From: Micromonospora peucetia
GTDB lineage: Bacteria > Actinomycetota > Actinomycetes > Mycobacteriales > Micromonosporaceae
Direction: 5' to 3'
Length of the DNA: 64,000 nucleotides
NCBI RefSeq assembly: GCF_900091625.1
Contig: NZ_FMIC01000002.1
Span: 1,054,001 to 1,118,000, forward strand
A model generated the notes under the pieces. It worked only from the letters and a program-made list of their open reading frames with translations, was not told where the DNA came from and did not search any database. The position numbers were made by a program, and so were the translations under genes. This document shows positions 43,321 through 43,593 of the stretch, piece by piece. Every line of letters begins with the position of its first letter. Positions within the stretch are counted from its first letter, which is position 1.

Positions 43321-43351
43321 GGCGGTACACGGGAAAGGAGGTGGTCCAGAC

Positions 43352-43390
43352 TTGTATAGCAATCGGACTCGTGAGGTGGCTGTCCGCTAG
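43352..43390 (+). CDS. 12-codon leader ORF with extended Shine-Dalgarno
   Basis: TTG start, peptide (M/L)YSNRTREVAVR, then TAG. The preceding GGGAAAGGAGGTGGTCC pairs almost fully with the 3' end of 16S rRNA, the strongest ribosome-binding site in the window, with 10 bases between GGAGG and TTG. The last codons overlap the 5' arm of a long-range RNA helix, so ribosomes on it would open that helix. The peptide itself is not recognised. Confidence 0.45.
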   Translation: MYSNRTREVAVR

Positions 43391-43551
43391 CCGCTGTCCT
43401 CGACAGTGAAACCGTCCGCCGCGAGGCGGGCACAGCACCATCGTCGAGACCGTGTGGCAGCGGTGCGGCGAAACCACGACAGCCACCCGACCCCCGGGGT
43501 GCCGGCCCAGTCCAGCCGGCCCGTGCGCGAGCATGGAAGCCCCGGGGGTCG
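43371..43551 (+). ncRNA. Structured leader RNA upstream of rnz (candidate)
   Basis: A perfect 10-bp helix GGTGGCTGTC/GACAGCCACC (43375-43384 with 43478-43487) closes a domain containing CTGTC-CTC-GACAG (43394-43406) and CCGCC-GCGA-GGCGG (43416-43429, a GNRA loop). Directly after it a 12-bp helix (43488-43499 with 43540-43551) encloses GCCGGC/GCCGGC (43501-43520). CTGTC and GACAG each occur twice and can exchange partners. No gene fits the stretch. It may be a cis-regulator of rnz or a free-standing RNA; I do not recognise the family. Confidence 0.5.
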
Positions 43552-43593
43552 ACCCTTGTCCGGGGCGGGTGGTCGACGCAGCCGGAGGTCACC

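Follow-up and report, generated by a model that had tools for sequence, protein, structure and literature searches.

The window, a stretch of 64,000 nucleotides from Micromonospora peucetia, contains upstream of rnz a full-length match to the Rfam family RF02471 (Ms_IGR-5). The match covers positions 1-184 of the 184-position covariance model and reaches 91.2 bits against a curated cut-off of 45 (E 1.2e-20), and no other Ms_IGR-5 match above the cut-off is found in the 7.37-Mb genome. An earlier note, made from the letters of the sequence, had allowed for a free-standing RNA that it could not name and had proposed a scan with Rfam models; the RNA can be named, and it is an actinobacterial sRNA. 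The only other Rfam match above the cut-offs in the window is a tRNA gene at 53117-53197 on the reverse strand. The features of the locus are collected in Table 1.

Table 1. Features of the Ms_IGR-5 locus, in window positions
Feature	Position	Strand	Basis
Promoter-like element: -35 TTGCCG (43292-43297), -10 TAGCGT (43315-43320), 17-nt spacer	43292..43320	+	sequence
Ms_IGR-5 RNA (RF02471)	43327..43557	+	full-length covariance-model match
H1, basal helix around SD1, 5' strand CACG (partner CGTG, 43370-43373)	43328..43331	+	compensatory changes
SD1, 17 nt complementary, with one G-U, to the 16S 3' tail CUGGAUCACCUCCUUUC	43333..43349	+	genome's own 16S
12-codon ORF, TTG start, TAG stop, peptide (start residue)-YSNRTREVAVR	43352..43390	+	conserved frame
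GGAC (codons 5-6), 5' strand of the pseudoknot; rival partner GGUCC of SD1 (43343-43347)	43365..43368	+	covariation
SD2, GAGGUG in codons 8-9, complementary to CACCUC of 16S; 9-nt gap to the stop	43373..43378	+	168/169 relatives
P2 closing helix, 5' arm (last ORF codons)	43375..43384	+	covariation ranks, pair probability 0.96-0.98
P2 closing helix, 3' arm	43478..43487	+	covariation ranks, fold, pair probability
P3 terminator-like helix, 5' arm	43488..43499	+	covariation
P3a hairpin on top of P3; loop GUCC (43510-43513) partners GGAC (43365-43368)	43501..43520	+	covariation, fold
P3 terminator-like helix, 3' arm	43540..43551	+	covariation, predicted fold
rnz (RNase Z), neighbour outside the conserved unit	43594..44523	+	ORF

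The Ms_IGR RNAs reportedly go back to an original paper by Li et al. in 2013 (RNA 19:74), and the S. coelicolor sRNA scr4389 may possibly be Ms_IGR-5. As filed, RF02471 is an sRNA gene, and its printed structure is without the ORF, SD2, basal helix, P2 and pseudoknot described here. Passages of two papers (PMC8079986 and PMC8780764) describe homologues: in S. lividans an sRNA transcript, in S. avermitilis an sRNA transcription unit. In the open literature covered, which consists mostly of passages and has the family's founding paper outside it, no function of Ms_IGR-5 is described, and neither are its ORF, SD2 or pseudoknot; because the founding paper falls outside this coverage, the novelty of the ORF is not certain.

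With matches counted at E <= 0.001, Ms_IGR-5 is present in 56 of 61 relatives. Of the genomes sampled, the window's family has it in 106 of 121, the class in 192 of 296 and the phylum in 31 of 149, 15 of these 31 lying above the Rfam cut-off. Since 104 of the 296 class genomes gave no match, the RNA seems to be dispensable in many lineages. In one genus of the window's family (g143) it is missing from all seven sampled genomes, and this loss might serve in a search for genes lost along with it. There is nearly always one match per genome, with two in G143, G398 and G418; in the last two of these, from two species of genus g144, the paired matches (L253 and L254) are weak and in tandem, and look like a duplicated or rearranged copy.

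Statistics on the ORF, its stop codon and SD2 come from 169 relatives not chosen by ORF sequence, namely 131 loci and 38 of 40 further loci from the window's family, the tandem copies L253 and L254 having been dropped; 100 loci were hand-picked for spread over families. A further set was chosen by a pattern fixing GTGAGGTG and GCTAG, and comprises 107 GGAT-type stretches, of which 102 were used (L159, L179, L208, L215 and L216 were excluded); it is because this pattern fixes those letters that the 169 others supply the ORF, stop and SD2 statistics. The excluded L179 (Streptomyces sp. NRRL WC-3742) has a GGAT-type RNA with unrelated sequence at the place of SD1 and is a broken or chimeric copy, and L202, from a metagenome-assembled genome (MAG) labelled Thermoleophilia, carries a GGAT and AUCC-loop copy like that of Nocardioides on a 4-kb contig, which is possibly a binning error. 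For covariation, 271 sequences, one identical to another, gave 270 distinct RNAs, which were aligned by sequence only with MAFFT; with a FastTree tree and a phylogeny-aware null of 60 simulations (own script), all 21,736 column pairs were scanned. Trees were built from the RNA itself. A phylum-level set contains 20 of 21 loci, 15 of the 20 below the Rfam cut-off; the search model favours the letters of SD1 and GTGAGGTG, so that their presence in these 20 is weak evidence, and gives no favour to changed helix pairs, the 9-nt gap described below or differing stop codons.

The RNA had been taken by the earlier note for a leader of rnz, and as a general role this is not supported by synteny. Among the 131 loci, rnz lies within reach of Ms_IGR-5 in 23, all from the window's genus (23 of 23), and in none of the 108 outside it, a few of which (L112, L059 and L042) have little downstream flank. 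Beyond that genus but within the window's family, 10 of 40 loci have rnz next to the RNA, with 4-53 nt from the end of the match to the first aligned residue, and one more has it 747 nt off. Crude gene calls for the 108 loci of other families give a first downstream gene that faces the opposite way at 64 and the same way at 41, and no such gene at three. A scan of 20 proteins adjoining the RNA at 11 loci, two of them without a match, found an aminotransferase class IV in L006, L119 and L044, a THAP4-like heme-binding protein in L119, L062 and L110, citrate synthase in L092 and L038, PNP oxidase in L075, and others. At a single locus a ribosome-related neighbour, a release-factor-like protein of the Pfam class acVLRF1, directly follows the RNA (L106:1803-2438, reverse strand). 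The flanking genes thus differ between families, which indicates that the conserved unit is the RNA and not a leader, and the constant link with a regulated gene expected of a cis-regulatory rnz leader was not found. Other parts of the earlier interpretation, a structured RNA that may be free-standing and that carries a translated-looking ORF, are supported.

In the window's own lineage the proximity of rnz may nevertheless have consequences. At L267 only about 9 nt separate P3 from the rnz start codon, so that the ribosome-binding site of rnz would coincide in part with the 3' arm of P3; no room is left for a promoter between the RNA and rnz. In this lineage alone, rnz starts so near the terminator-like hairpin that its mRNA could reasonably be supposed to arise by read-through from the RNA, and such read-through may be a local co-option.

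The promoter previously called conventional has plausible hexamers, and similar ones recur among relatives: of 131 loci, 106 have a TTG-N19-23-TAnnnT pattern at most 48 nt upstream, and the remaining 25 have the TAnnnT hexamer alone. Strict scans of the locus, however, found neither a sigma-70 promoter nor a T-run terminator. Downstream of P3 many relatives share a T.TCC-like motif (alignment columns 204 and 206-208 at 69-85%, about 43556-43561 in the window), which may be a conserved 3' tail or termination signal. In L031 a GGGGTCGCT-like unit recurs several times after P3, as direct repeats that are imperfect.

The 5' half of the RNA resembles a message. A complement of the 16S rRNA 3' end had been placed before the ORF (AAAGGAGGTGGTCC at 43334); it is present and is longer than claimed, with 17 contiguous pairs to the tail of the genome's own 16S, and the computed duplex has an energy of -33.9 kcal/mol compared with -10.7 for AAGGAGG. 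Its GGAGGTG is retained in 168 of 169 relatives. The TTG-started ORF was found where it had been described, with the codons TTG TAT AGC AAT CGG ACT CGT GAG GTG GCT GTC CGC TAG, and its conservation among relatives, on which the earlier reading was to be judged, is high. An in-frame ATG, GTG or TTG is present in 167 of the 169 (TTG 102, ATG 47, GTG 18, with ATC and CTG once each), the stop is TAG in 160, TAA in six and TGA in three, and the length is exactly 12 codons in 164 and 13 in three, the other two being without a standard start. The ORF thus has the conserved start, frame and stop that mark a coding ORF in an sRNA, and the swapping of three starts and three stops at fixed places is predicted by translation and not by RNA pairing. 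In the phylum-level relatives a permissive search gave frames of 13-15 codons in all 20, with an in-frame start candidate of CUG, AUC, AUU or ACG in nine; as these nine and two of the 169 closer relatives have non-standard start candidates, initiation there is uncertain. A ribosome-profiling paper (PMC4974804) places ribosome-protected reads on the Ms_IGR-5 homologues of M. abscessus and M. smegmatis, and its authors caution that footprints are also seen on many non-coding RNAs.

A second 16S-complementary element, SD2, lies inside the ORF. The sole relative among the 169 without GAGGTG (L124) has GAGGAGG instead, and the gap of 9 nt to the stop is kept in 167 of 169. All 20 phylum-level relatives also keep the 9-nt gap, with stops of TAG in 14, TGA in five and TAA in one; all 20 have GAGGUG, letters that the search model favours. 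Runs of at least four columns at 98.5% conservation in the 169 are limited to GGAGGUG of SD1 and GAGGUG of SD2, and GGAC, GUCC and GCUA are added at the 95% level. The part of SD2 that lies in P2, GGUG, underwent one parsimony change against 23 in its partners (p 3e-6), compared with 73 against 104 in the rest of P2 and its partner arm (Fisher p 2e-4 for the contrast), and the A of SD2 outside P2 did not change. With one change against 23 and more even numbers at the other P2 positions, the helix does not explain SD2, and neither do the amino acids, since both wobble positions are constant in the 169. Some protein or RNA contact could partly account for this conservation. When the stop codon occupies the A site, 6 nt lie between SD2 and the P-site codon, and it is possible, judging from spacing only, that the 16S tail is able to hold SD2 at that distance.

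The RNA is strongly structured, as had been proposed. The minimum free energy is -127.3 kcal/mol compared with a mean of -99.5 (sd 5.3) for 200 shuffles, none of which is as good (z -5.2), and the minimum-energy structure holds both long helices, the GCGA-loop hairpin of the original description and P3a. Both helices were verified, the 10-bp one (P2) between GGTGGCTGTC and GACAGCCACC, with the end of the ORF as its 5' arm, and the 12-bp one (P3) between CGACCCCCGGGG and CCCCGGGGGTCG. Covariation, the other property by which the earlier reading was to be judged, is present, and is best in the whole RNA at the P3 pair 140-192 (E 5e-4); the top twelve covarying pairs all fall within P3 and its extension, P3a (E 0.17), P2 or the pseudoknot. 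The P2 pairs 58-125 and 56-127 rank ninth and tenth of the 21,736 (E 5.2 and 6.1), and are not significant alone. By comparison, no covariation is seen in the 5' helix of the Rfam structure, which as read pairs the Shine-Dalgarno region with the end of the ORF; its best rank is 10,836 of 21,736.

The predicted fold contains both P2 and P3, side by side. Two exclusive folds had been suggested from an exchange of partners between CTGTC (43380 and 43394) and GACAG (43402 and 43478). Each does occur twice, but the switch is not conserved, since the inner CTGTC...GACAG pair that the exchange needs is present at 37 of the 61 loci from the window's family and at none of 108 loci outside it. The conserved competing element is GGAC at 43365-43368, and the competing pairs that might serve an attenuator are SD1 with GGAC and the P3a loop with GGAC, with no strict T-run terminator. 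Masking the end of the ORF in silico, as a ribosome would, abolishes P2 and partly frees its 3' arm, and a portion of that arm pairs with SD1 instead; no covariation supports this pairing, and a direct contact between SD1 and the 3' arm of P2 is a possibility only, derived from the folding model.

A pseudoknot between the ORF and the P3a loop is supported by covariation. Its pair 43-157, between the last base of GGAC and the first of GUCC, ranks third of 21,736 (E 0.036), the neighbouring pair 44-156 ranks 11th (E 6.7), and A43509-U43369 is a possible fifth pair. Columns 43 and 157 are C/G in 163 sequences, T/A in 97, T/G in eight and C/A in none, with a gap in two; among the 268 sequences with both letters there are no mismatches, the eight pairing as G-U. 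The GGAT selection pattern enriched the T state without enriching the loop letter; the 169 unselected sequences have C/G 163 times, T/A four times, T/G once and a gap once. The T/A state occurs in Kitasatospora, Nocardioides and Nocardia (three orders), in some records named Streptomyces, in MAGs and in 25 others, and the T/G wobble in Quadrisphaera, two Nanopelagicales MAGs, a Pseudonocardia MAG, an Actinomycetes MAG, two Streptomyces and one more locus. Against this spread, the RNA-built tree groups most T/A sequences together, and on it the loop change from G to A is gained only twice, with three reversals. By inspection, the pseudoknot is lengthened in phylum-level relatives (GGACC with GGUCC), and changed in L289 (TCGACC with GGTCGA). 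The rival pairing of GGUCC in SD1 with GGAC covaries weakly (18-43, E 270); its outward extension is fully paired in 34 of 162 distinct combinations, compared with a mean of 13.8 (sd 3.4, maximum 27 in 2000) for shuffles, a comparison uncorrected for the tree.

The basal helix H1 closes the region around SD1. In the 270-sequence set its score is modest, and its pair 3-47 ranks 16th (E 25), as A-T in 253 sequences, G-C in 14, G-T in two and A-C in one. At phylum level it has good support and takes the forms CACG/CGTG, CGTG/CACG, CCAG/CTGG, CAGG/CCTG, CGAG/CTCG and CGCA/TGCG, along with G-U variants, and all four pairs, with G-U allowed, form in 19 of 20 relatives, a count uncorrected for the tree.

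At the level of sequence, comparison among relatives bears out the family, the frame of the ORF, SD1, SD2, the helices and the pseudoknot. In the reading that we prefer, which is tentative and which we place only a little short of an even chance, Ms_IGR-5 is a free-standing RNA that resembles a message, loses its fold on being translated and holds the terminating ribosome at the stop. Within a loop that the basal helix closes, the 30S subunit would be able to form a Shine-Dalgarno duplex of 17 bp, and ribosome loading at SD1 would be strong; initiation, mostly at UUG, the commonest start, would probably be slow. The second half of the ORF is also one side of the RNA core, with codons 5-6 in the pseudoknot and codons 8-11 in the 5' arm of P2. 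Given that the message-like 5' half and the structured core share nucleotides, a ribosome passing codons 5-12 must open the pseudoknot and P2, and the translating ribosome would in this way open the core. On reaching the stop codon it would be gripped by SD2 through the 16S tail. The RNA would then have two states, one compact and ribosome-free and the other open and ribosome-held, and it might report or titrate ribosomes with an intact 16S tail. We infer that the RNA is translated in this organism, that the ribosome is held at the stop and that the two states have an output. A broader and distinctly more doubtful version is that Ms_IGR-5 is an Actinomycetota-wide ribosome-parking mini-message, in which SD1 loads and SD2 holds and which reads out or soaks up ribosomes with intact tails.

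Unlikely, but the strongest of the alternatives, is an antisense sRNA stabilised by ribosomes, with SD1 as a 5' stabiliser at which ribosome binding protects the RNA, the 3' half pairing with target mRNAs and the ORF merely limiting the ribosome's run. The 16S complement begins 7 nt from the predicted 5' end, the mostly unrelated neighbours suggest a free-standing RNA, and a precedent exists in the STAB-SD, which passages of one source (PMC4113751) describe as an SD-like sequence at the 5' end; it binds 16S and blocks RNase J1 but does not direct initiation. A 5' stabiliser, however, needs neither the start codon nor the fixed ORF length nor the second SD, all of which are kept, no conserved unpaired seed was identified in the compared sequences, and the 3' arm of P2 drifts.

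It is less likely still that Ms_IGR-5 is a decoy for the 16S anti-SD, which would titrate 30S subunits with an intact tail and so shift translation to leaderless mRNAs. The 17-bp complement would suit this role, and its 13-mer AAGGAGGTGRTCC is found at six genomic sites (SD1, the antisense strand of four 16S genes, and one elsewhere); about 14% of mycobacterial genes are leaderless according to passages of one source (PMC7148126). Such a decoy would require high abundance, and would have no need of a conserved ORF and stop.

A dual-function RNA with the 12-residue peptide as its product is improbable. The frame is conserved, and serine is found at codon 3 in 162 of the 266 twelve-codon ORFs of the 271-sequence set, through both TCN and AGY codons, so that codon 3 alone hints at conservation of a peptide. 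From its sequence, however, the peptide itself does not appear obviously conserved: residues 2 and 4 vary widely, and residues 5-12 change together with the RNA pairs, with Arg, Trp or Gly arising from NGG, Thr, Met or Ile from the change between GGAC and GGAU, and Ala, Thr, Val, Ser or Phe following changes in P2. Equally improbable is an rnz attenuator, in which ribosomes on the ORF would control read-through of P3 into rnz, since the proximity of rnz at all 23 loci of the window's genus and at 10 of 40 from related genera, and the lack of promoter room at L267, are set against 108 loci in other families where the RNA is equally conserved without rnz, and against the coexistence of P2 and P3.

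The preferred reading, a message-like RNA that holds its terminating ribosome, shares features with several known systems. tmRNA contains a tRNA-like domain and a tag ORF without its own start, and is likewise a structured, pseudoknotted and free-standing RNA that engages ribosomes and contains a short reading frame. Ms_IGR-5, in contrast, has its own SD and start codon; tmRNA families have no match above the cut-off in the window, and the RNA does not qualify as a tmRNA. In prfB frameshifting an internal SD a few nucleotides upstream of the stop acts on the ribosome, and Ms_IGR-5 also has an SD-like element shortly before its stop, although no frameshift or downstream reading frame was noted for it. 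Actinobacterial leader-peptide attenuators similarly have a short ORF whose translation disrupts a helix, but Ms_IGR-5 is without a conserved downstream gene, and no run of codons for a single amino acid is seen in the Ms_IGR-5 peptides listed. The likeness to the STAB-SD of the cry3A mRNA, in the passages available (PMC4113751), is an SD-like complement of the 16S tail near the 5' end. The STAB-SD lies within a 5' UTR, whereas Ms_IGR-5 is a separate RNA in which SD1 precedes a conserved ORF and a second SD at the stop. By analogy, Ms_IGR-5 may be partly like a STAB-SD and partly like a leader-peptide RNA, with a prfB-like SD before the stop, but has no clear place in any of these classes.

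Ms_IGR-5 is a known family that is real and well conserved, and its new anatomy suggests an RNA that grips the ribosome. If this is true, it would be a ribosome-status sensor of a kind not described in the literature covered, in a phylum in which leaderless translation is common. For an orphan sRNA, this would provide a directly testable question, that of the mutual control of ribosomes and RNA, and Ms_IGR-5 would serve as a warning against labelling such RNAs as non-coding.
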